From contig NZ_JAOEGB010000008.1 in the NCBI RefSeq assembly GCF_025420585.1, positions 62,001 to 126,000 on the forward strand: a DNA stretch of 64,000 nt. The letters run 5' to 3'. The notes under the pieces were generated by a model. It was not told where the DNA came from. It saw nothing but the letters and a program-made list of their open reading frames with translations, and did no database searches. This DNA comes from Planotetraspora sp. A-T 1434 (lineage in GTDB: Bacteria; Actinomycetota; Actinomycetes; Streptosporangiales; Streptosporangiaceae). The translations under genes were made by a program, and so were the position numbers. This document shows positions 25,536-59,511 of the stretch, piece after piece (the stretch's first letter is position 1; the number at the start of each line of letters is the position of its first letter).

Positions 25536-27572
<2,037 letters not shown>

Positions 27573-27576
<4 letters not shown>

Positions 27577-27742
27577 TCATGCACGCGTTCCCGGACAGGG
27601 GTCGCGGCCCGCGGTTCCCCCGCCCGTGATCATGCACGCGTTCCCGCGCATGACCGCCGGCCTGCGGTTCCTCCATGCGTGATCATGCGCGCATTCCCCG
27701 GCATGCCTCCGGACCTGCGGCTCCTTCGTCCGTGATCAGGCA
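27573..27742. repeat. 53-bp tandem repeat array A (GTGATCATGCRC...TTCCC)
   Basis: Units start at 27573, 27626, 27679 and (partial) 27732, exactly 53 bp apart. Each opens with GTGATCATGCRCGCRTTCCC or a close match, and the rest of the unit is GC-rich and variable. The TGATCA core of the first unit provides the TGA stop of the GyrI-like gene. The last unit provides the TGA stop of the nitroreductase on the other strand. Confidence 0.9.
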
Positions 27743-28418: not shown

Positions 28419-29540
28419 TCAGGCCAGCACCCCCGCCGCGCGGAGGGCCTTGGCGTCGTCGTCCGGCAGCCCCCAGCCGGTCAGGTCGTGCAGGCGGGTG
28501 GCGGGGGACAGGGCGCTCCGTTCTCTGCCCAGCAGGCGGGGCGCCGGAGCCGGCTGCGTCACGCCGCCGACCTCGACGAACGTCCCGCGCGCCCGGTTGT
28601 GGGGGTGTTCCGCGGCCTCGCCCATCTCCAGGACGGGGAACACACAGGCGTCCGAGCCGTCGAAGATCTCCTCCCACTCCGCCCTGGTCCTGGACCGGAA
28701 GGCCGCGGTCAGGCGTTCGCGCAGCTCGGGCCAGTTGGCCCGGTCGTCCCTGTCGGGCAGGTCGGCGATCCCCATCCGGGAGACCATCTCGCTCCAGAAC
28801 TGAGGCTCCAGCGGGCCGACCGCGAGGTATCGGCCGTCGGCCGTCTCGTACGTGTCGTAGATCGGGGAGCCGGTGTCCAGCAGGTTCGTCCCGCGCGGGC
28901 CCCAGGAGCCGCTCTGGACGCCGTGGTAGAACATCGAGAACAGGGCCGCCGCGCCGTCGACCATGGCGGCGTCGATGACCTGGCCCCTGCCGGTGCGCTC
29001 GCGCTCGAACAGCGCCAGCAGCACGCCGTACGCGAGCATGAGCCCGCCACCGGCGAAGTCGCCGAGGATGTTGATCGGAGGGGTGGGCTTCTCGCCCGCG
29101 CGGCCCAGCATCGACAGCGCGCCGGAGATCGCGATGTAGTCGATGTCATGGCCCGCCCGGGGCGCCAGCGGGCCGTCCTGGCCCCATCCGGTCATCCGGC
29201 CGTAGACGAGCCGTTCGTTCACCGGCCGCAGGTCGTCCGGGCCGATCCCGAGCCGCTCGGCGACACCCGGCCGGAACACCTCGATCACCACGTCGGCCCG
29301 GGCCGCCAGCCTCTTGAACGCCTCGACGCCCTCGGGCGACTTCAGGTCGAGGCCGATCGTGCGCTTGCCCCGGTCCATGACGTCCGGGCGGGGCGCGTCG
29401 GTCACCGCCGTGACCCGGTCGATCCGCAGGACCTCGGCGCCGTGGTCGGCGAGCATCATCCCGGCGAACGGCCCAGGGGCCAGCCCGGCGAGCTCCAGCA
29501 CGCGCACCCCGGCCAGCGGGCCCTTCCGGGACTCCTCCAT
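28419..29540 (-). CDS. CaiB/BaiF family CoA transferase / alpha-methylacyl-CoA racemase-like
   Basis: This 373-residue family III CoA-transferase fold protein has the start GVRVLELAGLAPGPFAGMML and the later Asp-containing DLKSPEGVEAF and GHDIDYIAISGALS motifs. The GHDIDYIAISGALSMLGR region resembles alpha-methylacyl-CoA racemase more than a transferase. If so, it would epimerise 2-methyl-branched acyl-CoAs, which would fit the branched-lipid genes at 30-38 kb. Specificity cannot be fixed from sequence alone. It is the first gene of a two-gene operon with the nitroreductase. Confidence 0.85.
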   Translation of the reverse strand: MEESRKGPLAGVRVLELAGLAPGPFAGMMLADHGAEVLRIDRVTAVTDAPRPDVMDRGKRTIGLDLKSPEGVEAFKRLAARADVVIEVFRPGVAERLGIGPDDLRPVNERLVYGRMTGWGQDGPLAPRAGHDIDYIAISGALSMLGRAGEKPTPPINILGDFAGGGLMLAYGVLLALFERERTGRGQVIDAAMVDGAAALFSMFYHGVQSGSWGPRGTNLLDTGSPIYDTYETADGRYLAVGPLEPQFWSEMVSRMGIADLPDRDDRANWPELRERLTAAFRSRTRAEWEEIFDGSDACVFPVLEMGEAAEHPHNRARGTFVEVGGVTQPAPAPRLLGRERSALSPATRLHDLTGWGLPDDDAKALRAAGVLA

Positions 29541-29614
29541 GCCACTCTCCTCGGTGGGTGGTTCTGTTCATGGGTTAGTAGAACATGCTTCGGTCGCGTG
29601 GGAGACTTCGCCAT

Positions 29615-30595
29615 GTGACGTGGAAGCTGCTGGCGCTGCCGCCCCTGCCCGAGGACGCCGTCCGCGGGCTGCTCGCGGACCTGGGCGACCGGGTCGAGGT
29701 CGCCGTCCCCGCCCGCCGTGATCGCGCGGCCCTGCTCGACGCCCTGCCCCAGGCAGAGATCGTCGTCGGCGACTGGAGCGGCATGCTCGTCCTGGACGAG
29801 GAGGCCGTACGGCACGCTCCCAAGCTCGCCTTCCTGCAGCAGCCGTCGGTCGGCGTGGACGGCCACGACCTGGAGGCGCTCGCCAAGGCGGGAGTGCCGC
29901 TGTCCAACACGGCCGGGGTCAACGCCCTGTCCGTGGCCGAGTGGTGCCTGGCCGCGTCGCTCGCGCTGCTGCGGCACCTCGCCGACGGCGACCGGGAGAT
30001 GCGGGCGGGGGAGTGGCCGCAGTTCACCGCGCAGCGCCGGGAGCTCGCGGGCGCCCGCGTCGGCGTCGTCGGCTTCGGTCCGATCGGCGCCACCTGCGCC
30101 CGCCTGTTCGGCGCGCTCGGCTGCGAGGTCTCCTACTGGTCACGCTCGCCCAAGGCCGAGTCGTACGGCGCGGCCTACCGCGACCTCGACTCGCTGATCG
30201 CCTCCAGTGACGTGCTCGTCCTCGTCGTGCCGCTCACCGACGAGACCCGCGGCCTGCTCGACGCGGCGCGGCTCGCGCGAATGCCCGCCGGATCGGTGCT
30301 GGTCAACGCCGCCAGGGGCGGGATCGTCGAGCAGGCGGCGCTGCTGGCGGCGCTGGAGTCGGGCCATCTGGCCGGGGCCGCGGTGGACGTCTACGACATC
30401 GAGCCGCTTCCCGCCGACGATCCGCTGCGCTCGTGCGGCCGGATCCTGCTGTCGCCCCACGCGGCCGCGGTGACCCCGCAGGCGATGGCCCGCCTCGTCG
30501 AGTGCGTGCTCGGCAACGTGCGGGCCGCGCTCGACGGCCGGCCGGTGACGAACGTGGTCAACGGGGCCGACCCCGTCGTCTATCGGCGCCTCTGA
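29615..30595 (+). CDS. D-2-hydroxyacid dehydrogenase family protein
   Basis: This 326-residue NAD(P)-binding protein has the Rossmann motif VGVVGFGPIG (about 145-154). The catalytic set is present: Arg in NAARGGIVE, Glu in VYDIEPLP and His in SPHAAAVT. It would reduce a 2-keto acid to a D-2-hydroxy acid or the reverse. The GTG at 29615 has GGGAGA about 9 bases upstream. It is divergent from the CoA-transferase operon. Confidence 0.88.
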   Translation: MTWKLLALPPLPEDAVRGLLADLGDRVEVAVPARRDRAALLDALPQAEIVVGDWSGMLVLDEEAVRHAPKLAFLQQPSVGVDGHDLEALAKAGVPLSNTAGVNALSVAEWCLAASLALLRHLADGDREMRAGEWPQFTAQRRELAGARVGVVGFGPIGATCARLFGALGCEVSYWSRSPKAESYGAAYRDLDSLIASSDVLVLVVPLTDETRGLLDAARLARMPAGSVLVNAARGGIVEQAALLAALESGHLAGAAVDVYDIEPLPADDPLRSCGRILLSPHAAAVTPQAMARLVECVLGNVRAALDGRPVTNVVNGADPVVYRRL

Positions 30596-30803: not shown

Positions 30804-32174
30804 ATGCCAGAGCGCACGGCAAGTATGACCGCCCATAGGAAGGCCGTCGAGCAGATCAGGGACTCCTACGCGGCGATCCCCGATGACGCGGCTCCCCGGC
30901 TCGCTAAGGCGACCACGAACCTGTTCCGTTTCCGTGAGCCGACCAAGACGGCCACGCTGTCCGCCCGCGACCTGGACCAGGTGATCCAGGTGGACCCCGT
31001 CACCATGACGGCCGAGGTCCAGGGCATGACCACGTACGAGAACCTGGTGGACGCGACCCTGCCGTACGGGCTCATGCCGTACGTCGTGCCGCAGCTCAAG
31101 ACGATCACGCTCGGCGGCGCGGTCACGGGTCTCGGCATCGAGTCGACCAGCTTCAAGGACGGCCTGCCGCACGAGTCCGTGGAGGAGCTGGAAATCCTCA
31201 CCGGCGACGGGCGGATCGTCGTGGCGCGGGCCGACAACGAATACGCCGACCTGTTCCGGGCCTTCCCGAACTCGTACGGCACTCTCGGCTACGCCCTGCG
31301 GATCCGGATCAAACTGGCCCGGGTCAAGCCGCACGTGAAGCTGACGCACATCCGGTTCACCGACGCCGACAAGTGCATGCTCGCCATGCAGGAGATCTGC
31401 GAGAGCCGCGAGCACGACGGCGAGCAGATCGACTTCGTCGACGGCACGTTCTTCGCGCCGGACGAGCTCTACATCACGGTCGGCACGTTCGCGGACAAGG
31501 CACCCTACGCGTCCGACTACACGGGCATGCGCATCTACTACCAGTCGATCCGCAACCGGACGCGCGACTGGCTGACCATCCGCGACTACCTGTGGCGCTG
31601 GGACACCGACTGGTTCTGGTGCTCGCGCGCCTTCGGCGTGCAGCAGCCGCTGGTCCGCTCGCTGATGCCGCGCCGCTGGCTCCGCTCCGACGTGTACCGC
31701 AAGCTGGTCGGCCTCGACCAGCGGTACGGCCTGACCGCCCGCATCGACCGCTGGCGCGACAACCCGGTGCAGGAGTCGGTCATCCAGGACGTGGAGGTCC
31801 CCGTCGAGCGGGGAGCCGAGTTCCTCGACTTCTTCCACGACCGGGTCGGCATGGCCCCCGTGTGGATGTGCCCGCTCAAGGCCAGTGGCGAATGGTCGCT
31901 GTACCCGCTGGAGCCCGGACGGCTCTACGTGAACTTCGGCTTCTGGGGCATGGTCCCGTTGCCGCGTGGCCAGCATGACGGCTACTACAACCGGCTGATC
32001 GAGCACGCCGTACACCGGCTCGACGGCCACAAGTCGCTGTACTCGACCTCGTTCTACGAGCGGGACGAGTTCTGGCGGCTGTACAACGGGGACTCCTATT
32101 GGCCCGTGAAGCGCTCGTACGACCCGGGCGGGCGGCTGCTCGACCTGTACGACAAGTGTGTCCGGGGTAGGTAG
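30804..32174 (+). CDS. tmsA: FAD-binding oxidoreductase, TmsA-like (10-methyl fatty acid synthesis)
   Basis: This 456-residue FAD_binding_4 protein related to DHCR24-type reductases contains PYVVPQLKTITLGGAVTGLG-type FAD loops and SYGTLGYALRIRIKL. A helical C-terminal part has WSLYPLEPGRLYVNFGFWG. In actinobacteria such a gene directly before a cyclopropane-synthase-like gene encodes the reductase of tuberculostearic-type 10-methyl fatty acid synthesis: it reduces the 10-methylene intermediate using NAD(P)H. The ATG has GGGGGTGG 5 bases upstream and the methyltransferase gene follows 27 bp downstream. About 200 bp upstream carry no gene and are expected to hold the operon promoter. Confidence 0.8.
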   Translation: MPERTASMTAHRKAVEQIRDSYAAIPDDAAPRLAKATTNLFRFREPTKTATLSARDLDQVIQVDPVTMTAEVQGMTTYENLVDATLPYGLMPYVVPQLKTITLGGAVTGLGIESTSFKDGLPHESVEELEILTGDGRIVVARADNEYADLFRAFPNSYGTLGYALRIRIKLARVKPHVKLTHIRFTDADKCMLAMQEICESREHDGEQIDFVDGTFFAPDELYITVGTFADKAPYASDYTGMRIYYQSIRNRTRDWLTIRDYLWRWDTDWFWCSRAFGVQQPLVRSLMPRRWLRSDVYRKLVGLDQRYGLTARIDRWRDNPVQESVIQDVEVPVERGAEFLDFFHDRVGMAPVWMCPLKASGEWSLYPLEPGRLYVNFGFWGMVPLPRGQHDGYYNRLIEHAVHRLDGHKSLYSTSFYERDEFWRLYNGDSYWPVKRSYDPGGRLLDLYDKCVRGR

Positions 32175-32201
32175 GCAGTACGTGCGTGGGGAGAGGTGCA
32201 C

Positions 32202-33461
32202 ATGACTCTTGCGGAGATCTTCGAGAAGATCGTCGGCTCTGACGCGGGCGTCCAGTTCGCGGCCTACGACGGCAGCAAGGCCGGATCGCCGGACGCGGAC
32301 ATCCGGATCGAGGTGAAATCTCCGATCGCGGTGGCCTACCTCGCGCAGGCCCCGGGGGAGATGGGCCTCGCGAGGGCCTATATCTCGGGGCATCTCGACG
32401 TCCAGGGCGACATGTACACGCTTCTGGACCGCATGTGGTCCATAACCCTGAACGACCTGCCGCTCAGCGAGAAGATCGCCGCGGTCCGGTCGCTCGGGGC
32501 CAAGCCGCTGCTCATGCGGGTCCCCCCGCCGCCGCAGGAGGTGCGGCGCAGCACGCTCGCCAAGCTCGGCAGCCGCCACGCCAAGCAGCGCGACGCCGAG
32601 GCGATCCACCACCACTACGACGTGTCCAACCGCTTCTACGAGTGGGTGCTCGGGCCGTCCATGGCGTACACCTGCGCGGTCTTCCCGTCGCACGACGCGA
32701 CGCTGGAGGAGGCGCAGTACGCCAAGTTCGACCTGGTGGCCAAGAAGCTCGACCTCAAGCCGGGCATGCGGCTGCTCGACGTCGGCTGCGGCTGGGGCGG
32801 CATGGTCATGCACGCGGCCCGCGAGTACGGCGTGAAGGCCCTGGGCGTCACCCTCTCCCGCCAGCAGGCGGAGTGGGCGCAGAAGGCGATCGCCGAGGCC
32901 GGGCTCTCCGAGCTCGCCGAGGTCCGCCACACGGACTACCGCGACGTCGCCGAGACCGGCTTCGACCGGGTCAGCTCCATCGGCCTGACCGAGCACATCG
33001 GCAAGGACCAGCTCCCGTCGTACTTCTCCTTCCTGTACGGCAAGCTCAAGCCGGGCGGGCGGCTGCTCAACCACTGCATCACCCGCCCGACGGGCAAGGA
33101 GAAGACGATCAACAAGGGCGGCTTCATCAACCGCTACGTCTTCCCCGACGGCGAGCTCGAGTCGGTCGGCCACCTCATCCGTCAGATGGAGGACACCGGC
33201 TTCGAGATCCGCCACGAGGAGAACCTGCGCGAGCACTACGCGCTGACGCTGCGCGAGTGGTGCGCCAACCTCGACGCCCATTGGGACGAGGCGGTCCAGG
33301 AGGTCGGGCAGGGCACCGCCCGCGTCTGGCGGCTCTACATGGCGGGCTGCGTGGTCGGCTTCGAGCGCAACAAGGTGCAGCTGCACCAGGTGCTCGGCGT
33401 CAAGCTCGACGACCAGGCCTCGGCGCAGGTCGCCCTGCGCCCGTCCCTCGACTGGCCGTGA
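32202..33461 (+). CDS. tmsB: Cyclopropane-fatty-acyl-phospholipid synthase-like methyltransferase, TmsB-like
   Basis: This 419-residue SAM-dependent methyltransferase of the CFA synthase family has the SAM site LLDVGCGWGGMVMHAA and HHYDVSNRFYEWVLGPSMAYTCAVF around the active site. The C-terminal region (ENLREHYALTLREW) is also typical. In TmsAB pairs it adds a methylene from SAM to the double bond of an oleoyl chain on a phospholipid, and TmsA then reduces it. The start at 32202 has GAGAGG 6 bases upstream. A plain cyclopropane synthase cannot be excluded, but the linked reductase argues for the 10-methyl route. Confidence 0.82.
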   Translation: MTLAEIFEKIVGSDAGVQFAAYDGSKAGSPDADIRIEVKSPIAVAYLAQAPGEMGLARAYISGHLDVQGDMYTLLDRMWSITLNDLPLSEKIAAVRSLGAKPLLMRVPPPPQEVRRSTLAKLGSRHAKQRDAEAIHHHYDVSNRFYEWVLGPSMAYTCAVFPSHDATLEEAQYAKFDLVAKKLDLKPGMRLLDVGCGWGGMVMHAAREYGVKALGVTLSRQQAEWAQKAIAEAGLSELAEVRHTDYRDVAETGFDRVSSIGLTEHIGKDQLPSYFSFLYGKLKPGGRLLNHCITRPTGKEKTINKGGFINRYVFPDGELESVGHLIRQMEDTGFEIRHEENLREHYALTLREWCANLDAHWDEAVQEVGQGTARVWRLYMAGCVVGFERNKVQLHQVLGVKLDDQASAQVALRPSLDWP

Positions 33462-33465
33462 TCGT

Positions 33466-34992
33466 CTATCGCAGCTCGCGCTTGAGGATCTTGCCGGTGG
33501 CGGTCATCGGCAGGGACTCGCGGAACTCGACGATCCGCGGGTACTTGTAGGCCGCCATCGTCTCCCGGCACCAGGCGACCAGCTCCTCCTCGGTCGTCGT
33601 GGTTTCGGGAGTGCGGATGACGTACGCCTTGATCTCCTCGCCGTGCGACTCGTGGGCCACGCCGACGACGGCGGCGAGGGAGACGGCGGGGTGCGTCAGC
33701 AGCACCTCCTCGATCTCACGCGGGTAGACGTTGAACCCGCCACGGATGATCATGTCCTTGGCGCGGTCGACGATGTAGTAGTAGCCGTCCTCGTCGCGCC
33801 TGGCCACGTCGCCGGTGCGGAACCAGCCGTCCTTCATGACCTCCGCGGTCGCCTCCGGCCGGTTGTGGTAGCCCTTCATGATGTTGTGCCCGCGGATGGC
33901 GATCTCGCCGACGTCGGTGACCGTGTTCCAGTCGCCGTCGATGAGCTTCATCTCCACGCCCCAGATCGGGGTGCCGATCGACCCCGCCTTGGCCGGCCTG
34001 CCGACCTGGTTGAAGGAGGCCACCGGGGAGGTCTCCGACAGGCCGTAGCCTTCCAGGATCCCGACGCCGAACGTCGCGGCGAAGTCCTTCAGCACCTCGA
34101 CCGGCAGCGCGGAGCCGCCCGCGATGGCGGTCGCCAGTGAGGCGGGCGCCTTACCGGCCCCACTGTGGACCGCGGTCAGCAGCGCCCAGTACATCGTCGG
34201 CACCCCGGCGAAGAGCGTGACCTTCTCCTCGGCCATCAGCGCGAGCGCCTCGGCCGGATCGAAGCGCGGCACGAGGACCAGGGCGGCCCGGCGGCGGAAG
34301 CCCGCGTTCATGATCACGGTCTGCCCGAATGAGTGGAAGAGCGGCAGGGTGGCGAGGTAGACGTCGTCGCCCTGGCGGGGGAACATCTCGTCGCTGATCA
34401 TGGCGTTGATCAGCATGTTCTGGTGGCTCAGCTCGGCGCCCTTGGGCCGGCCGGTGGTGCCGCTCGTGTAGAGGATCACCGCGGTGTCGTCCGGGGCCGT
34501 CTGCACGGTCTCGAACTCGCCGGACACGCCGTCGAGGGCCGCCCACAGGGTCTCGCCGTACGGCGACTCGGTGGCGAGCGGGGTGGCGGGCAGCACGAGG
34601 AAGTGCTCGGTTCCCGCCGCGCCCTCGAAGCCGGCCCGGCCCCGCTCGCCGAGCGGCAGTTCGGGCGTGCCCTCGAAGCAGAAGAGGGCCTTGGCCTCGG
34701 AGTCTTCGAGGTGGTAGGTGATCTCCCGCGACTGGAGCAGGACGTTGAGGGGGACGACCGTGGCGCCGGCCTTGAGGATGCCGAAGTAGACGAACGGGAA
34801 GTAGGGGAGGTTGGGGCAGGCCAGCGCCACCTTGTCTCCTTTGCCGATGCCCCGGGAGACGAGCATGTTCGCGACCTGGTTGGCGACGGTGTTCACCAGC
34901 GAATACGGCAGGCGGAGGTCACCCAGCACCAAGGCGGTGCGGTCCGGGGTCTCCCTGGCGCTGTCCTCCAGCACGACGGACAGGTTGAGCAT
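33466..34992 (-). CDS. Long-chain fatty-acid-CoA ligase (AMP-binding)
   Basis: This 508-residue ANL superfamily enzyme has the P-loop YTSGTTGRPKGA, the motif GYGLSETSPV, the hinge Asp in YYIVDRAKDMIIRGG and the C-terminal catalytic Lys in PMTATGKILKREL. It activates fatty acids to acyl-CoA via acyl-AMP. It ends 5 bp from the convergent tmsB-like gene. The ATG has AAAGGGAG 5 bases upstream, and a TetR-type palindrome lies about 50 bp before the start. The context suggests turnover or supply of chains for the branched-lipid genes. Confidence 0.92.
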   Translation of the reverse strand: MLNLSVVLEDSARETPDRTALVLGDLRLPYSLVNTVANQVANMLVSRGIGKGDKVALACPNLPYFPFVYFGILKAGATVVPLNVLLQSREITYHLEDSEAKALFCFEGTPELPLGERGRAGFEGAAGTEHFLVLPATPLATESPYGETLWAALDGVSGEFETVQTAPDDTAVILYTSGTTGRPKGAELSHQNMLINAMISDEMFPRQGDDVYLATLPLFHSFGQTVIMNAGFRRRAALVLVPRFDPAEALALMAEEKVTLFAGVPTMYWALLTAVHSGAGKAPASLATAIAGGSALPVEVLKDFAATFGVGILEGYGLSETSPVASFNQVGRPAKAGSIGTPIWGVEMKLIDGDWNTVTDVGEIAIRGHNIMKGYHNRPEATAEVMKDGWFRTGDVARRDEDGYYYIVDRAKDMIIRGGFNVYPREIEEVLLTHPAVSLAAVVGVAHESHGEEIKAYVIRTPETTTTEEELVAWCRETMAAYKYPRIVEFRESLPMTATGKILKRELR

Positions 34993-35038
34993 CGTCGCTC
35001 CCTTTCTTTCGGCCGTTCTGGTCGGCCGTTTCAGTCCA

Positions 35039-35054
35039 TACCAACCGGTAGGTA
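35039..35054. promoter_or_regulatory. TetR-type operator palindrome TACCAACCGGTAGGTA
   Basis: The core ACCAAC-CG-GTAGGT (35040-35053) has one mismatch between arms and lies upstream of the acyl-CoA ligase. It has the same ACCnACnnGTnGGT form as the site at 443-456. Confidence 0.55.
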
Positions 35055-35110
35055 CCTCACAGTAACGGCTGGGGGCCGCGCTGAGGAGGGTGATCCGGCG
35101 CAAGCCGTAC

Positions 35111-35260
35111 GTGATCATCCACCACCTTGGGAGGTGATCATGCACGGGTTCCCAGGGTGGCGGGGTGAGCTGCGCGAAGCGCCGTACGTGATCATGCGCA
35201 CTTTCCCTGGATGCCTTCCGATGTGCGGGAACGCAAGCCGTGATCATGCACGATGGTCAA
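35111..35260. repeat. 53-bp repeat array B
   Basis: GTGATCAT motifs start at 35111, 35134, 35188 and 35240. The last three are 54 and 52 bp apart, close to the 53-bp period of array A and in the same orientation. They fill the gap between the acyl-CoA ligase promoter and the first P450. Confidence 0.85.
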
Positions 35261-35299
35261 GCCTTGACGTAAGTGATTGCTCGGACAAAAGTGGGCGGC

Positions 35300-36574
35300 A
35301 TGACCGTGGCGCCGGGCATCGACCTGTCGTGGATCCCGTTCTGGGGTCTGCCGCAGACTGAGCGGCTGGACGCGTTCCGGCGGCTGCGCGAGCTGGACCG
35401 GCCCGTCTTCGTCCAGGAGAACAAGATTCCCTTCATCCGGCACGGCGCCGGTTACTACGCGCTCGTACGGCATGCCGACGTGAGCGAGGCCAGCCGGAAC
35501 GCCGGGATCTTCAGCAGCGAGCCGACCGCGAACAGCATCCCGGACATGCCGCGGTGGCTCGCCGTCTACTTCGGGTCGATGATCAACATGGACGATCCGC
35601 GGCACGCCCGGCTGCGCCGCATCGTCTCGCGGGCCTTCACGCCCCGCGTCCTCGCCAAGATGGAGCAGGACCTCCAGCGGGCGGCCGAGGAGATCGTCGG
35701 AAGGGCCGTCAAGGACGGTCCGGGGGATTTCGTCACCCAGATCGCGGCCAGGCTCCCGGTCCGGGTCATCTGCGACATGATCGGCATTCCCGGGAAATAT
35801 CACGACATGGTGCTCAGCCGTACGAACACGATCCTCGCCAACGCGGACGGCGAGTATTCGGGGATCGAGGTGGACTACTCCCGGCAGGACGCGCCCTTCG
35901 GCCGATGGGCCACGGCCCGCGGCCTGGTCAAGCTGCTCCGTGCGGGACACGAGCTCAGCGCCCTGGCGCAGCGCCTCGGGCGGGAGCGCCGCCGGCACCC
36001 GACGGGCGACCTGACCAGCCTCCTTGTGAACGGGGAGGAGCGGCTCACCACCCAGGAGCTCGGCTCGTTCTTCATCCTGCTCGTCGTGGCGGGCAGCGAG
36101 ACCACGCGCAACGCGATCACGCACGGACTAAAGCTCCTCACCGACAACCCCGGCCAGCGCGAGCTGCTCACCGGCGACTTCGAGACGCACATCGGGGGCG
36201 CGGTCGAGGAAATCGTCCGCTATGCCACCCCGGTGATCCAGTTTCGCCGGACCGTCACGCGCGACCACTCGATGAACGGGCAGGACTACAAGAAAGGCGA
36301 CAAGGTCCTGCTGTTCTACAACTCCGCGAACCGGGACGAGGCGGTCTTCACCGATCCCGACGTCTTCGACATCACGCGAAGCTCCAACCCCCATGTCGGC
36401 TTCGGTGGCCCGGGTCCGCACTACTGCCTCGGCGCCCATCTGGCCAGGCGGGAGATCACGGTCATGTTCCGCGAGCTGTTCGGGCGGATGCCCGAGATCC
36501 GCTCCGACGGCGAGCCGGCCTACCTGCTGTCCAACTTCATCAACGGTGTCAAGCACCTGCGCTACCGGTTCTAG
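35300..36574 (+). CDS. Cytochrome P450, CYP124/125-like
   Basis: This is a 424-residue soluble P450. The I-helix is FFILLVVAGSETTRNAI (acid-alcohol pair in AGSETTR), the K-helix EIVRYATPVIQFRR, and the haem loop GFGGPGPHYCLGAHLARRE holds the cysteine ligand. The C-terminal FINGVKHLRYRF is typical of the CYP124/125/142 group, which hydroxylates the ends of methyl-branched lipids or sterol side chains. The ATG at 35300 has GGGCGG upstream. It is flanked by inverted arrays of the 53-bp repeat and followed by a close paralogue. Its redox partners are not in the window. Confidence 0.9.
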   Translation: MTVAPGIDLSWIPFWGLPQTERLDAFRRLRELDRPVFVQENKIPFIRHGAGYYALVRHADVSEASRNAGIFSSEPTANSIPDMPRWLAVYFGSMINMDDPRHARLRRIVSRAFTPRVLAKMEQDLQRAAEEIVGRAVKDGPGDFVTQIAARLPVRVICDMIGIPGKYHDMVLSRTNTILANADGEYSGIEVDYSRQDAPFGRWATARGLVKLLRAGHELSALAQRLGRERRRHPTGDLTSLLVNGEERLTTQELGSFFILLVVAGSETTRNAITHGLKLLTDNPGQRELLTGDFETHIGGAVEEIVRYATPVIQFRRTVTRDHSMNGQDYKKGDKVLLFYNSANRDEAVFTDPDVFDITRSSNPHVGFGGPGPHYCLGAHLARREITVMFRELFGRMPEIRSDGEPAYLLSNFINGVKHLRYRF

Positions 36575-36691
36575 TGCATGATCACGTACGGCTGACGACC
36601 AGGCCAGGGCGGGTGGCGGGGAACCTGTGCATGATCACCACCTGAGCGGGTGCCGGTGCGGCTGGGTGAGCGGGAATCTCTGCATGATCAC
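36574..36691. repeat. 53-bp repeat array C (inverted orientation)
   Basis: The reverse-complement motif GTGCATGATCAC starts at 36574 and 36627, with a one-mismatch copy at 36680, exactly 53 bp apart. It lies directly after the first P450 stop and before the second P450. Orientation is opposite to arrays A and B. Confidence 0.9.
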
Positions 36692-36752
36692 GCGGGATTG
36701 TGGCAGGATGAACCGAACGTGATTCTGGTCGCAGACCTCTCCAAGGAGCGCC

Positions 36753-38027
36753 ATGACCACCCCGCCTGTGGAACAGGCCCCCATCAGGTCGGCCACCGAC
36801 GTCAACCTGTCTGACTGGAACTTCTGGGCCCGGTCCCAGGAGGAGCGCGAGCACGCGTTCCGGCTGCTGCGCGAGCTGGACCGGCCCGCGTTCTTCGAGG
36901 AGCCCGAGGTCACGTTCGCCCAGACGAGGGGCATCGGCTACCACGCGCTGGTCCGGCACGCCGACATCCTGGAGGCCAGCCGCAACCCCGAGGTCTTCTG
37001 CTCGGGCGACGGCGGAGCGACCAGCATCCTCGACATGCCCGCCGAGCTGGCCGAGTATTTCGGCTCCATGATCAATATGGACGACCCTCGCCACGCCCGC
37101 CTGCGCCGCATCGTCTCCCGCGCGTTCACGCCCAGGATGATCAAGCAGTTCGAGGCCGACGTGGACGCGGCGGCCGTGCGGATCGTCGACGAGTTGCTCG
37201 CCACGGGCACGGGGTGCGACTTCGTCACCGAGGTCGCCGCGAAGCTGCCCCTGAAGATTATCTGCGACATGATGGGAATCCCGGAGAAGGACTACGGATT
37301 CGTCTTCGACCGGTCGAACATCATCCTCGGCGCCTCGGACCCGGAGTACGTCAGCGACCGCGGGGGCATCGCCCACGCGCTGCTCACCGCCGGTATGGAG
37401 CTCCAGCAGCTCGTCCAGGACCTGGCCGTCCACCGGCTCGAGAACCCGACGGACGACCTGACATCCTCGCTGGTCAACGCCAACATCGACGGTGAGCGGC
37501 TGACCGCGCAGGAGCTCGGGTCGTTCTTCATCCTGCTCGTCGTCGCCGGCAACGAGACCACCCGCAACGCCATCTCGTACGGCATGCGCCTGCTCACGCT
37601 CAACCCCGGCCAGAAGCGGCTATGGCTGGAGGACGTCGAGGGGCGCGCGGCGGGCGCGGTCGAGGAGATCGTCCGGCTGGCCGCGCCGGTGAACTTCATG
37701 CGGCGCAAGGTCACCCGCGACCACGTCATGAACGGCAACCTGTACCGGCAGGGCGAGAAGGTCGTCCTCTACTACTGGTCGGCCAACCGGGACGAGCGGG
37801 TCTTCGACGACCCGCTCCGGTTCGACATCCTCCGCGCCCCGAACCCGCACGTCGGCTTCGGCGGCCCCGGGCCGCACTTCTGCCTCGGCGCCCATCTCGC
37901 CCGCAGGGAGATCACCGTGATGTTCCGCGAGCTGCTCCGCCGCGTTCCGCGGATCGAAGCCGGCGAGCCCGAGCGGCTGTTCTCCAGCTTCATCAACGGC
38001 ATCAAGCACATGCGGTGCGACTTCTGA
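36753..38027 (+). CDS. Cytochrome P450, CYP124/125-like (paralogue)
   Basis: This 424-residue P450 is clearly related to the one at 35300, with the same length and many identical segments (YFGSMINMDDPRHARLRRIV in both). The I-helix has LVVAGNETTRNAI, where N replaces S, the haem loop is GFGGPGPHFCLGAHLARRE, and the end is FINGIKHMRCDF. It has a strong AAGGAG ribosome-binding site 4 bases before the ATG. The pair looks like a tandem duplication, with the 53-bp repeat array between the copies. Substrates may be branched fatty acids from the nearby TmsAB-like enzymes. Confidence 0.9.
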   Translation: MTTPPVEQAPIRSATDVNLSDWNFWARSQEEREHAFRLLRELDRPAFFEEPEVTFAQTRGIGYHALVRHADILEASRNPEVFCSGDGGATSILDMPAELAEYFGSMINMDDPRHARLRRIVSRAFTPRMIKQFEADVDAAAVRIVDELLATGTGCDFVTEVAAKLPLKIICDMMGIPEKDYGFVFDRSNIILGASDPEYVSDRGGIAHALLTAGMELQQLVQDLAVHRLENPTDDLTSSLVNANIDGERLTAQELGSFFILLVVAGNETTRNAISYGMRLLTLNPGQKRLWLEDVEGRAAGAVEEIVRLAAPVNFMRRKVTRDHVMNGNLYRQGEKVVLYYWSANRDERVFDDPLRFDILRAPNPHVGFGGPGPHFCLGAHLARREITVMFRELLRRVPRIEAGEPERLFSSFINGIKHMRCDF

Positions 38028-38043
38028 CGATCGGACGGTCGCG

Positions 38044-39501
38044 CTAGCCGGCCCGGCGAATCGCCTTGAAGACCGTGTTGATGTCGGGAAGCAGGTCGTC
38101 CTTGAGCGCCGGGACGGCCATGTAGACGATCGCGGGCACGTCCGCGCCGGTGTTGACCGCCCCCACGAACACGGTGGTCTCCTCCTTGTCGGCCTCGACC
38201 TTGTAGGCGGCGATCAGGCCGGTCAGACCGTTGCGGGACAGGCGCTGCTGCGCCACCTTCGTCACCTTGTTCCCCTTGGGGAACAACGTCTGCCGCGCCT
38301 GGAACATCACGGCGCTGATCACTGGAGCGAGCTTGTCCGGCGAGGTGTACCGCGCGGCCAGCGGTTGCGGGAGCGGGCCCGACATGACCTGGGCGAACTC
38401 AGGTTTGCCCCTCGTGGTCATCCCGGCGGGGACGAACTGGCGGGTCGCATAGCCGTACTTCGTCTTGATGTCCTGCGCGTTCCTGTCGAGCTGCCACGGG
38501 CCGCCGAGCTTGGGCACCGTGATGCCCGCCGCCTCGTCGGTCACCACGCCGCTGACCGGCGAGGCCGTGCCCTTGAACCTCGGCAGCGCGGGGAACTGCG
38601 ACGCGGCCTTCGGCGGCGCCGCCGACACCGTGGGCTTCGCCTCGGGGCTCGGCACGGTCTCCGCGCCGTCGTCCGACCTGAGCGGCCCCGCGACGAACGC
38701 CCAGATCAGGCCGCCCACCAGGGCCACGAGCACCGTCCCGACGAGGGTGAACAGCCAGATCGGCCGGCCGCGCTCCTCGTCCTCGTACTCGTCGATCGCC
38801 CGGTAGTTCTCCCCGAAGACCGTGTTCCACAGCTCCTGCTGCCGATGCGCGGGAGGCGTCTTCGGCCCGCTGATCTGCCCCGCCGTCACGAACGGCTTGT
38901 ACGGATCATCGGCCCTCGGCGGGCTTGGCTGTGCCTGGACCGGCTGCGGGGAGAACGGCTGCGCGGGATTCGCGAACGGCTGTGCGGGGTTCGCGAACGG
39001 CTGCGCCGGTTGCTGCGGGAAGGGCTGCGCGGGGTTCGGGAACGGCTGTGCCGGGCCCTGGAACGGTTGCGCCGGTTGCTGCGGGAAGGGCTGCGCGGGG
39101 TTCGGGAACGGCTGTCCGGGAGCCTCGAACGGCTGGGCGGGGGCCTGCGGTGTGGCGCCCATCATCGACGGCCCGGCGCCGGTCATGAAGGGCCCGGTCT
39201 CCGTCATCGGCGGTCCGGACTCCACGAAGGAGCGGACAGTCGGGGTGAAGGAGGAGGCCGTGGGGACCTCGGGCCAGGCAGGCGGAACCTCCGGCCAAGC
39301 CGTGGCTCTCTGGGGGTCGCTGTGGTCCGAGGGCATGGCACCTCCAGAGATCATGCCCGGATTGGGAGTGCCTGGCATGTTCTCATGCGACGTGGGGGCC
39401 GCCGCAGTAAAACTGGAGAATGCCGCGCGAAACTGTTCGCCCGTGGGGTCGGTCGGCGGATCCTGCATCGGTAGGTCCGACGACGGAAATGGGTTGGCCA
39501 C
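38044..39501 (-). CDS. Membrane protein with PAQPF repeats and outer domain
   Basis: This 485-residue protein has a long cytoplasmic Pro/Gln/Phe-rich region (about 100-205) with repeats of PAQPFxNPAQPF. One transmembrane helix follows (about 252-275), then an outer domain (about 300-485) ending in DINTVFKAIRRAG. The outer domain resembles that of the protein at 17188-18216. The GTG at 39501 has no good ribosome-binding site, and an ATG at 39468 is an alternative. Function is unknown. The repeats may form a flexible tether or a binding scaffold. Confidence 0.75.
   Translation of the reverse strand: MANPFPSSDLPMQDPPTDPTGEQFRAAFSSFTAAAPTSHENMPGTPNPGMISGGAMPSDHSDPQRATAWPEVPPAWPEVPTASSFTPTVRSFVESGPPMTETGPFMTGAGPSMMGATPQAPAQPFEAPGQPFPNPAQPFPQQPAQPFQGPAQPFPNPAQPFPQQPAQPFANPAQPFANPAQPFSPQPVQAQPSPPRADDPYKPFVTAGQISGPKTPPAHRQQELWNTVFGENYRAIDEYEDEERGRPIWLFTLVGTVLVALVGGLIWAFVAGPLRSDDGAETVPSPEAKPTVSAAPPKAASQFPALPRFKGTASPVSGVVTDEAAGITVPKLGGPWQLDRNAQDIKTKYGYATRQFVPAGMTTRGKPEFAQVMSGPLPQPLAARYTSPDKLAPVISAVMFQARQTLFPKGNKVTKVAQQRLSRNGLTGLIAAYKVEADKEETTVFVGAVNTGADVPAIVYMAVPALKDDLLPDINTVFKAIRRAG
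38935..39130. repeat. In-frame minirepeats encoding PAQPF units
   Basis: Repeated 30-45 bp units (minus-strand Pro-Ala-Gln-Pro-Phe) occur within the membrane protein gene. The units differ by a few bases, so the array could gain or lose units without a frameshift. Confidence 0.75.
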
Positions 39502-43717: not shown

Positions 43718-43765
43718 CCACAACATCTAGTAGTCACATCGATGTAAGTTCACCACTTCTTGTGG
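43718..43765 (+). promoter_or_regulatory. Two NrdR boxes
   Basis: CCACAACATCTAGTAG (43718-43733) contains a full CWANATNTWG core. TCACCACTTCTTGTGG (43750-43765) is a weaker match. They start 32 bp apart, three helical turns, as usual for NrdR box pairs, and lie before nrdR. Confidence 0.7.
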
Positions 43766-43795
43766 TTGCGGTGTGCGTTCATGGGAGGCGATGGC

Positions 43796-44260
43796 ATGCA
43801 CTGTCCGTTCTGTCGCCACCCGGACACGCGGGTCGTGGACAGCCGCTCGACCGAAGACGGGGCGGCCATCCGCCGTCGGCGCACGTGCCCCGAGTGCGGG
43901 CGCAGGTTCACCACCCAGGAGACCGTCCTGCTCATGGTGAGCAAGCGCAGCGGGGTCACCGAGCCCTTCTCGCGCGACAAGGTCATCGCCGGGGTACGGC
44001 GGGCCTGCCAGGGGCGCCCGGTCAGCGAGGATTCGCTGGCGCAGCTCGGGCAGCGTGTAGAGGAGAGCATCCGGGGCACGGGAGCGGCCGAGATCGCCTC
44101 ACACGAGGTGGGGCTCGCCATCCTGGGGCCGCTGCGCGATCTCGACGAGGTCGCCTATCTCCGGTTCGCATCGGTTTATCGCGGGTTCGAGACGCTGGCC
44201 GACTTCGAGGCGGAGATCGAGCAGCTCAGGGTGGCCCGCACCGCGTCGAGCGAGCAGTAG
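43796..44260 (+). CDS. nrdR: Transcriptional repressor NrdR
   Basis: This 154-residue protein has an N-terminal zinc ribbon (Cys3, Cys6, Cys31, Cys34) and an ATP-cone (about 49-139) that senses ATP and dATP. It represses ribonucleotide reductase genes by binding paired NrdR boxes, two of which lie just upstream. The ATG at 43796 (MHCPFC) has GGGAGG 7 bases upstream. It is followed by nrdJ, so the operon is self-regulated. Confidence 0.96.
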
Positions 44261-44360
44261 GACGCCCCCTGCGCCGGGGACCGGCCGGGCGCGACGATGT
44301 GGTTATGAAGACACGTGGTCCGACACTAGGGGCTCCACCGGGCCCTGGGAGGGGGAAGTC

Positions 44361-47195
44361 ATGACGGAAGTGAACGGCACCGTGACGGGACCGGGGGGTG
44401 CGGTGGCCGGAGGCCGGAAGCGCACGCGCAAGGGCCTGAAGATGAAGCGCATCTTCACGACCGCCGGAGTTCACCCGTACGACGAGGTCCGCTGGGAGCG
44501 TCGCGACGTCGTGATGACGAACTGGCGCGACGGCTCGGTGAACTTCGAGCAGCACGGCGTGGAGTTCCCCGAGTTCTGGTCGGTCAACGCGGCCAACATC
44601 GTGACGACCAAGTACTTCCGCGGGGCCGTCGGCACGCCGCAGCGCGAGTGGAGCCTCAAGCAGCTCGTCGACCGCGTCGTGGGCGTCTACACCCGGACCG
44701 GTGTCGAGCACGGCTACTTCGCCGGCGACGAGGACGCCGAGATCTTCGACCACGAGCTCAAGCACGCCCTGATCCACCAGATCTTCAGCTTCAACTCCCC
44801 GGTGTGGTTCAACGTCGGCACGCTCTCCCCCCAGCAGGTGTCGGCCTGTTTCATCCTCGCCGTCGACGACCAGATGGAGTCGATCCTCGACTGGTACAAG
44901 GAAGAGGGTGTGATCTTCAAGGGCGGCTCCGGCTCGGGAGTCAACCTCTCCCGCATCCGGTCGTCCAAGGAACTGCTGTCCAGCGGTGGCACGGCCAGCG
45001 GCCCGGTCTCCTTCATGCGCGGCGCCGACGCCTCCGCCGGGACCATCAAGTCGGGCGGCGCGACCCGCAGGGCCGCCAAGATGGTCGTCCTCGACGTCGA
45101 CCACCCCGACATCGAGGAGTTCATCGAGACCAAGGCGCGCGAGGAGGACAAGATCCGCGCGCTGCGCGACGCCGGGTTCGACATGGACCTCGGCGGCAAG
45201 GACATCGTGTCCGTGCAGTACCAGAACGCCAACAACTCGGTCCGCGTCTCCGACGAGTTCATGCGCGCCGTCGAGGCCGGCGGCAAGTTCGGCCTGCGCG
45301 CCCGCCTCACCGGCGAGGTCATCGAGGAGGTCGACGCGAAGTCGCTCTTCCGCAAGATGGCGCAGGCCGCGTGGGAGTGCGCCGACCCCGGCCTGCAGTA
45401 CGACGACACGATCAACGACTGGCACACCTGCCCCGAGACGGGGCGGATCACGGCCAGCAACCCCTGCTCGGAGTACCTCCACCTCGACAACTCGTCCTGC
45501 AACCTGGCGTCGATCAACCTGCTGAAGTTCCTGCGCGACGACGACACCTTCGACGTCCCGAACTTCGTGAAGCTGACCGAGCTGATCATCACCGCGATGG
45601 ACATCTCGATCACCTTCGCGGACTTCCCGACCGAGAAGATCGGCGAGACGACCCGCGCCTACCGCCAGCTCGGCATCGGCTACGCCAACCTCGGGGCGCT
45701 GCTCATGGCCACCGGCCACGCGTACGACTCGGACGGCGGGCGGGCCGTCGCGGCCGCGATCACCTCGCTGATGACCGGCGCCTCCTACCGCCGCTCGGCC
45801 GAGCTGGCCGGGATCGTCGGGCCGTACGACGGCTACCAGCGAAACGCCGAGCCGCACAAGCGGGTGATGCGCAAGCACGCGGCGGCCAACGACGACCTGC
45901 GCACGCTGAGCGACATGGACAAGACCATCCACGCCGAGGCCACCCGGCAGTGGCAGGAGTGCCTCAGGCTCGGGGAGAAGAACGGCTACCGCAACGCCCA
46001 GGCGTCGCTGCTCGCCCCCACCGGAACCATCGGCCTGATGATGGACTGCGACACCACCGGCATCGAGCCCGACCTGGCGCTGGTCAAGTTCAAGAAGCTC
46101 GTCGGCGGCGGCTCCATGCAGATCGTCAACCAGACGATCCCGCGGGCGCTCCGGCAGCTCGGCTACCAGGAGGAGCAGGTCGAGGCGATCGTCGAGTACA
46201 TCGCCGAGCACGGCCACGTGGTCGACGCCCCCGGGCTCAGGATCGAGCACTACGAGGTGTTCGACTGCGCCATGGGCGAGCGGGCCATCGCCCCGATGGG
46301 CCACGTCCGCATGATGGCGGCGGCCCAGCCGTTCCTGTCCGGCGCGATCTCCAAGACGGTCAACCTGCCCGAGACGGCCACCGTCGACGAGATCGAGCAG
46401 GTCTACCTGGAGGGCTGGAAGCTCGGCCTCAAGGCACTGGCCGTCTACCGCGACAACTGCAAGGTCGGCCAGCCGCTCTCCGCCGCGAAGAAGCCTTCCG
46501 AGGTGGAGCCCGAGCCCGTCCCCGTGCAGGTCATCGAGGTGCCGCGGCCGACCCGCCGCCGGATGCCGAACCAGCGGCCCAGCCTGACCACGCGCTTCAC
46601 CGTTGGCGGCGCCAAGGGCTACATGACCGCCTCGTCCTACCCGGACGACGGTCTCGGAGAGGTCTTCCTCAAGATGTCCAAGCAGGGCTCGACCCTCGCT
46701 GGCGTCATGGACGCGTTCTCCGTGGCCATCTCGATCGGCCTGCAGTACGGCGTGCCGCTGGACACCTACGTCCAGAAGTTCGTCAACATGCGGTTCGAGC
46801 CGGCCGGCATGACCGACGACCCGGACGTCCGGATGGCGCAGTCCGTCATGGACTACATCTTCCGGCGGCTCGCGCTCGACTACCTGCCGTACGACGACCG
46901 CGCGGCGCTCGGTATCTTCTCGGCGTCCGAGCGGGCCGCTCAGCAGCGCGGAGAGGACCCGGCGGCTCTCCAGGAGGTCGTGGACACGGCCGCCCTGGCC
47001 CAGTCCGCGCCGATCGAGGAGAAGCCCAAGGCCGTCTCCGTCGCCGACCCGCAGCGGGCGGGGGTCACCTCGCTGGAGAGCCACCAGGGCCGTACGGCCG
47101 ACGCCCCGCTGTGCATGACCTGCGGCACGAAGATGCGCCCGGCGGGTAGCTGCTACGTCTGCGAGGGCTGCGGCAGCACCAGCGGCTGCAGCTGA
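44361..47195 (+). CDS. nrdJ: Vitamin B12-dependent (class II) ribonucleotide reductase
   Basis: This is a 944-residue adenosylcobalamin-dependent ribonucleotide reductase. It has a conserved substrate loop NPCSEYLHLDNSSCNLASINL-like region (about 372-392), an ALLAPTGTIG-type barrel strand, and a C-terminal Cys-rich tail with CMTCGTK and CYVCEGCGS that feeds reducing power and may bind zinc. It makes deoxynucleotides in aerobic or anaerobic growth and needs B12. The ATG has GGGAGGGGG upstream. The NrdR boxes before nrdR should control both genes. Confidence 0.96.
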   Translation: MTEVNGTVTGPGGAVAGGRKRTRKGLKMKRIFTTAGVHPYDEVRWERRDVVMTNWRDGSVNFEQHGVEFPEFWSVNAANIVTTKYFRGAVGTPQREWSLKQLVDRVVGVYTRTGVEHGYFAGDEDAEIFDHELKHALIHQIFSFNSPVWFNVGTLSPQQVSACFILAVDDQMESILDWYKEEGVIFKGGSGSGVNLSRIRSSKELLSSGGTASGPVSFMRGADASAGTIKSGGATRRAAKMVVLDVDHPDIEEFIETKAREEDKIRALRDAGFDMDLGGKDIVSVQYQNANNSVRVSDEFMRAVEAGGKFGLRARLTGEVIEEVDAKSLFRKMAQAAWECADPGLQYDDTINDWHTCPETGRITASNPCSEYLHLDNSSCNLASINLLKFLRDDDTFDVPNFVKLTELIITAMDISITFADFPTEKIGETTRAYRQLGIGYANLGALLMATGHAYDSDGGRAVAAAITSLMTGASYRRSAELAGIVGPYDGYQRNAEPHKRVMRKHAAANDDLRTLSDMDKTIHAEATRQWQECLRLGEKNGYRNAQASLLAPTGTIGLMMDCDTTGIEPDLALVKFKKLVGGGSMQIVNQTIPRALRQLGYQEEQVEAIVEYIAEHGHVVDAPGLRIEHYEVFDCAMGERAIAPMGHVRMMAAAQPFLSGAISKTVNLPETATVDEIEQVYLEGWKLGLKALAVYRDNCKVGQPLSAAKKPSEVEPEPVPVQVIEVPRPTRRRMPNQRPSLTTRFTVGGAKGYMTASSYPDDGLGEVFLKMSKQGSTLAGVMDAFSVAISIGLQYGVPLDTYVQKFVNMRFEPAGMTDDPDVRMAQSVMDYIFRRLALDYLPYDDRAALGIFSASERAAQQRGEDPAALQEVVDTAALAQSAPIEEKPKAVSVADPQRAGVTSLESHQGRTADAPLCMTCGTKMRPAGSCYVCEGCGSTSGCS

Positions 47196-48252: not shown

Positions 48253-50835
<2,583 letters not shown>

Positions 50836-59163: not shown

Positions 59164-59511
59164 TCAGGACTCGAAGGCGACGAGACGCATGATCACGTAG
59201 CCGTCGCCCTCGGCCATGGGCGGGAACGTGGTCCCGGGCACCGCCTCGAAGATCTCGGGGCGCTCGGCCCGGGACACCACGCCGAACATCTCGCCCGGCA
59301 GCGTCATGCCGAGCGCGTGGGCGCGCTTCGCGGCGGCGTAGAAGCTGCCGCCCGACTCGAGCTCGGCGGCGATGGTCTCCGCTGCCCAGTGGTCGGCGAG
59401 CCGGATGAACGCCACGCGCGCATTGTCCGGCTTCGCCGTCTGCGCGCTGAGGTAGTCCTCGATCTCCCATATGAGCAGCTCGCCCAGGTACTGCGACGTG
59501 TCTTTCCACAT
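59164..59511 (-). CDS. Conserved small protein of unknown function
   Basis: This is a 115-residue soluble protein with one cohesive domain (YLGELLIWEIEDYLSAQ at the start, EGDGYVIMRLVAF at the end). There are no recognised motifs. The ATG at 59511 has AGGGAA about 13 bases upstream, which is long. Coding character is good and the gene is convergent to the metallothionein-like gene. Confidence 0.6.
   Translation of the reverse strand: MWKDTSQYLGELLIWEIEDYLSAQTAKPDNARVAFIRLADHWAAETIAAELESGGSFYAAAKRAHALGMTLPGEMFGVVSRAERPEIFEAVPGTTFPPMAEGDGYVIMRLVAFES

Follow-up and report, generated by a model that had tools for sequence, protein, structure and literature searches.

A lineage-specific bfaAB neighborhood in Streptosporangiaceae that may make and turn over methyl-branched acyl chains

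Introduction

Why would an acyl-coenzyme A (CoA) ligase and two cytochrome P450s sit beside the genes for 10-methyl fatty acid synthesis? The question is raised by Planotetraspora sp. A-T 1434 (genome size 7.8 Mb), in which such a stretch occupies positions 30804 to 38027 of the 64,000-nt window analyzed here (contig NZ_JAOEGB010000008.1, positions 62,001 to 126,000; assembly GCF_025420585.1), with an alpha-methylacyl-CoA racemase gene just before it. All coordinates below are those of the window. In many actinomycetes, the membranes are marked by 10-methyl fatty acids, known in the tubercle bacillus as tuberculostearic acid, and we are not aware of a published pathway that degrades them or modifies them further. 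With the racemase, ligase, and P450s, the surroundings of the biosynthetic pair contain concrete candidate genes for these processes, and the locus would give CYP124-type enzymes, the natural substrate of which is still unconfirmed (PMC7589583), a genomic context pointing to fatty acids. We postulate that the stretch is a lineage-specific neighborhood that makes and turns over methyl-branched acyl chains, a reading to which we assign a probability of roughly 40%.

Results

Gene content of the bfaAB stretch

Judged by homology, the segment from 30804 to 33461 is bfaA-bfaB (tmsA-tmsB), the gene pair known for 10-methyl fatty acid synthesis. More specifically, bfaA (30804 to 32174, forward strand; FAD_binding_4) encodes a predicted flavin adenine dinucleotide (FAD)-dependent 10-methylene fatty acyl reductase, and bfaB (32196 to 33461, forward strand; CMAS, 339 bits) encodes a predicted S-adenosylmethionine-dependent methyltransferase of unsaturated phospholipid acyl chains. 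The Cfa-type methyltransferase directly adjoins the FAD-binding reductase in the order bfaA-bfaB, and the described bfaAB operon has the same two genes, gene order, and domain types (PMC5660069, PMC7791843). BfaA and BfaB are 65% and 67% identical, respectively, to the active pair of Thermomonospora curvata, which converts oleate to 10-methylstearate when expressed in E. coli; production of the 10-methyl acid needs bfaAB alone, with no P450s present, and the authors equate the tms genes with bfa (PMC7791843). We infer that the Planotetraspora pair carries out the synthesis shown for these orthologues. Our survey sample comprised 151 genomes of the order, 147 of them in the Genome Taxonomy Database (GTDB) family Streptosporangiaceae. 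All 147 family members have a strong bfaA match, and bfaA and bfaB are adjacent in 40 of the 40 bfa loci found outside the family.

The gene at 28419 to 29540 (reverse strand; CoA_transf_3, 287 bits) scored 388 bits to alpha-methylacyl-CoA racemases (MCR; PDB 1x74 and 8rmw) and at most 132 bits to class III CoA transferases. Its GHD, GDF, and DTYE motifs, which we take to be the catalytic His, Asp, and Glu of MCR, are kept in the alignment with MCR. On this comparison the gene is clearly racemase-like and not transferase-like. A first-pass annotation of the window had called it CaiB-type racemase-like (at 28.4 kb), and the gene suits the branched-lipid interpretation better than that annotation could have known. 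The genome has no second close copy of it (834 bits versus 113 for the next homologue), and of the 64 orthologues that score 590 bits or more, 63 are found no farther than 12 kb from bfaA. A phylogenetic profile of the racemase was uninformative, since every one of the 151 genomes has a match.

The FadD-type acyl-CoA ligase (33466 to 34992, reverse strand; AMP-binding, 300 bits) most likely starts at 34992 and not at 35247, as its relatives begin at MLNL in the alignment. The corrected protein has 508 amino acids, and the divergent intergenic region then measures 280 bp. The TmsA/TmsB-like pair, the ligase, and the two P450s named in the first-pass annotation were all present in the range that it gave (30804 to 38027).

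Both P450s, P450-1 (35273 to 36574, forward strand; p450, 78 bits) and P450-2 (36753 to 38027, forward strand; p450, 77 bits), exceed 40% identity to CYP124A1 of Mycobacterium tuberculosis, an omega-hydroxylase of methyl-branched lipids and their closest relative among characterized, naturally occurring P450s of solved structure (335 bits and 47.5% identity for P450-1; 387 bits and 50.7% for P450-2). CYP268 and CYP125 score lower, and both proteins are nearer CYP124 than CYP125 or CYP142. The catalytic motifs are those of CYP124A1, with the I-helix and heme-binding motifs intact in both (AGSETTR and the heme-Cys motif in P450-1; AGNETTR, EEIVR, and HFCLG in P450-2). Unlike CYP124A1, the locus P450s are tandem-duplicated, and CYP124A1 falls outside their clade. 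A quick tree of 94 P450s with a single support measure required 5 label changes for the locus copies versus 31.5 after shuffling, and it placed the duplication at the locus itself. The groups around the locus (P450-2-type, P450-1-type, Thermomonospora-type, and Nocardiopsis-side) are each separate, and the P450-2 group includes members from Microbispora, Planotetraspora, Nonomuraea, Streptosporangium, and Herbidospora.

Conservation of the neighborhood

A strong P450-2 relative occurs in 102 genomes; in 99 of these, one lies no more than 25 kb from bfaA (median distance, 8.1 kb), the exceptions being genomes G001, G058, and G118. This linkage goes beyond chance, and the synteny survey in Streptosporangiales that the first-pass annotation had proposed as a check finds its genes together. 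T. curvata is one of the 99, and its locus also has a P450 and a ligase before leuS. Since the linkage is confined to one GTDB family, it is one ancient inherited arrangement that was kept, not a series of independent events.

Over the deepest splits of the family, the flanks stay the same and so do bfaA, bfaB, the ligase, and the P450 between them, whereas other inserted genes are gained and lost. Those between bfaAB and leuS encode a sugar transporter, a GGDEF protein, and an aminotransferase (named by eye), as well as a GMC oxidoreductase and an alpha/beta hydrolase (named by Pfam). In several genera (loci L065, L067, L079, and L089), the P450 shares the strand of bfaA-bfaB-bfaC and comes after them, with a gap of 25 to 82 bp in front of it; the small third gene is probably bfaC, judging by its position. 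A GMC oxidoreductase gene lies 27 to 73 bp before a P450 gene in the relatives L063, L069, L084, and L092, a placement consistent with oxidation of the alcohol that hydroxylation would leave.

As a separate observation, loci L063, L069, L073, L084, and L092 hold the GMC oxidoreductase, some together with an alpha/beta hydrolase or a class III aminotransferase, inside the bfa-P450 stretch; the window stretch is without them.

A candidate operator of the ligase

Upstream of the ligase, at 35039 to 35054, lies a strandless palindrome (TACCAACCGGTAGGTA) that could serve as a TetR-type operator of this gene. The 16-bp element (TACCNACCGGTNGGTA) has just 2 exact copies in the whole genome, the second located just upstream of the closest paralogue of the ligase (41% identity), which is next to arginine genes. 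In addition, related loci totaling 2.4 Mb contain 71 palindrome sites, 69 of which are upstream of the locus ligase. We regard the palindrome as a candidate operator of a small regulon of two acyl-CoA ligases. A common operator for bfaA, the ligase, and the P450s was sought without success; the sole strong palindrome belongs to the ligase.

Discussion

A possible route for making and turning over branched chains

The ligase, P450, and racemase all fit the chemistry of methyl-branched lipids. In the reading that we favor, BfaB would methylate C9-unsaturated phospholipid chains and BfaA would reduce the methylene group, giving 10-methyl fatty acids, while the ligase may activate free branched acids for beta-oxidation. 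Natural 10-methyl acids have the (R) configuration, their C10 methyl sits at C2 after four rounds of beta-oxidation, and acyl-CoA dehydrogenases are S-specific. The four rounds would in this way turn (R)-10-methyl acids into a (2R)-2-methylacyl-CoA that these dehydrogenases would refuse, and the stereochemistry suggests that the adjacent racemase could invert it to the 2S form. The CYP124-like P450s would hydroxylate methyl-branched chain ends, most likely those of abundant iso fatty acids or isoprenoid lipids, and not C10. Terminal oxidation of such chains would presumably also yield 2-methyl carboxylates, which would need the ligase and the same racemase. Because both routes, the breakdown of 10-methyl chains and terminal oxidation, would use the ligase and racemase, the cluster would be coherent without the P450s acting on a 10-methyl chain.

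The proposed order of terminal oxidation, CoA activation, and 2-methylacyl-CoA epimerization is that of mycobacterial sterol and isoprenoid side-chain oxidation, which employs CYP125, CYP142, or CYP124, an acyl-CoA ligase, and MCR. Unlike that system, the stretch contains bfaAB and is without an acyl-CoA dehydrogenase or thiolase, and the genome shows no KshA_C marker. The bfaAB reports (PMC5660069, PMC7791843) cover no genes beyond bfaA, bfaB, and an optional bfaC or assistant gene; no P450 is mentioned there, and we came across no reference to a racemase or ligase beside bfaAB. Our search of the open-access literature likewise returned no oxidized 10-methyl lipids, no link between bfa genes and P450s, and no paper on this combination of genes, which the first-pass annotation had also not recognized as a described pathway. 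The components are known; their conserved combination appears to be undescribed in that literature.

Alternative explanations

Several observations weigh against a common function. Outside the family, the bfaAB-P450 linkage is essentially absent (1 of 40 bfa loci, with a weak P450 of 195 bits), and P450 relatives occur there with no bfaAB nearby. The racemase matches found in all 151 genomes are often far from bfaAB, and bfaAB is retained by many family members that have no CYP124-like P450. Neither a redox partner nor beta-oxidation genes were seen within the stretch, and a scan of 122 loci showed no ligase palindrome upstream of bfaA. In this genome we found no shared operator or operon that would join these genes with bfaAB in a single co-regulated pathway, the ligase being on the opposite strand. 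Inheritance from a common ancestor accounts for much of the linkage, and there is a real chance that it accounts for all of it, with bfaAB, a general FadD, and CYP124-like P450s adjoining one another near leuS and lexA by descent and serving unrelated processes. Such a history would account for the presence of leuS in 68 of 68 full-length loci, for the conservation of lexA, and for an unrelated proline-rich gene (38044 to 39501, reverse strand) that follows P450-2, travels with it and leuS, and is found in 67 of the 68 loci; its product is probably membrane-anchored, as read from the translation, and is without a Pfam or NCBIfam match. Because these genes are kept too, conservation alone cannot prove a shared pathway. 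The confinement of the linkage to the family, the ligase's own candidate operator, and the Nocardiopsis-like genomes, in which the ligase stays beside leuS with no P450, point the same way. What speaks for a functional tie instead is that across the family's deep split just bfaAB, the ligase, and the P450 remain with the housekeeping genes while intervening genes turn over, that the P450s were duplicated in place, and that the enzymes share a chemistry suited to methyl-branched lipids.

The P450s are dispensable for 10-methyl synthesis, because bfaAB, mostly along with the ligase, is retained in members without a P450, among them the Nocardiopsis-like genomes. We consider it unlikely that the locus is a dedicated 10-methyl system, in which BfaAB makes the R-methyl branch and the racemase, ligase, and P450s remodel or recycle these same chains, leading to an undescribed oxidized 10-methyl lipid or to dedicated catabolism. 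The pathway put forward in the first-pass annotation, in which BfaAB supplies 10-methyl acids for hydroxylation by the P450s and activation by the ligase, giving an undescribed oxidized mid-chain-branched lipid, is possible but rather improbable. Its gene identities and their co-occurrence stand, and the conserved linkage, the co-directional bfaA-bfaB-bfaC-P450 arrangements with their short gaps, and the tolerance of CYP124 for varied head groups (PMC7589583) are in its favor. Known CYP124 substrates, however, have in common a methyl-branched tail that the enzyme pins for omega-hydroxylation (PMC7589583, PMC6469627), and 10-methylstearate has no such tail; bfaAB is functional and widespread without P450s and is unlinked to them outside the family; the ligase has a candidate operator of its own that was not seen at bfaA; and the expected product is among those for which we found no report. 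For 10-methyl lipids, a single make-activate-oxidize pathway is possible yet unproven, because the known targets of CYP124 are methyl-branched chain ends and not mid-chain branches. In our view, the P450s are very unlikely to be oxidases of steroid side chains or terpenoids, or enzymes of secondary metabolism, with no fatty acid substrate in the cell. In favor of such a role, CYP124A1 oxidizes cholestenone and vitamin D (PMC7589583), and an off-locus member of the P450 clade (L158) adjoins two acyl-CoA dehydrogenases, a position that counts for our favored reading too. Against this, both P450s are nearer CYP124 than the sterol-associated families named above, terpene or polyketide genes do not adjoin, and the genome has no match to KshA_C (3-ketosteroid 9alpha-hydroxylase), the sole marker tried, for which no control genome passed the cut-off and which is not a full test. 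The absence of KshA_C lowers the sterol reading, as there is no sign of classical sterol ring degradation. The off-locus P450 relatives were only suggestive as a guide to substrate, their neighbors being mixed (Na/H exchanger, MoeA, MFS, acyl-CoA dehydrogenases, and ligase).

Other features of the window

Between the racemase and bfaA lies a gene for a D-2-hydroxyacid dehydrogenase-like protein (29585 to 30595, forward strand; 2-Hacid_dh_C, 188 bits), which is kept in close relatives only.

The intergenic regions contain a tandem repeat of ~53 bp, whose core GCATGATCAC is invariant and is preceded, at a distance of a few bases, by a conserved GGGAA. It occurs at 27572 to 27742, 35134 to 35249, and 36576 to 36691, with a single copy at 59187. 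The copies between the P450 genes were considered as operator sites and rejected, since head-to-tail GCATGATCAC pairs number 505 in the genome, versus 0 for the reversed pattern. The repeat is a large intergenic repeat family; it was not seen in Microbispora or Nonomuraea loci and is found in other Planotetraspora loci.

Farther along the window, 48253 to 50835 encodes an 860-amino-acid protein that weakly matches DUF222 and HNH endonuclease. Beside lexA, the segment from 43760 to 47195 holds nrdR and, after it, the gene for a class II (B12-dependent) ribonucleotide reductase, an arrangement that is ordinary for actinomycetes.

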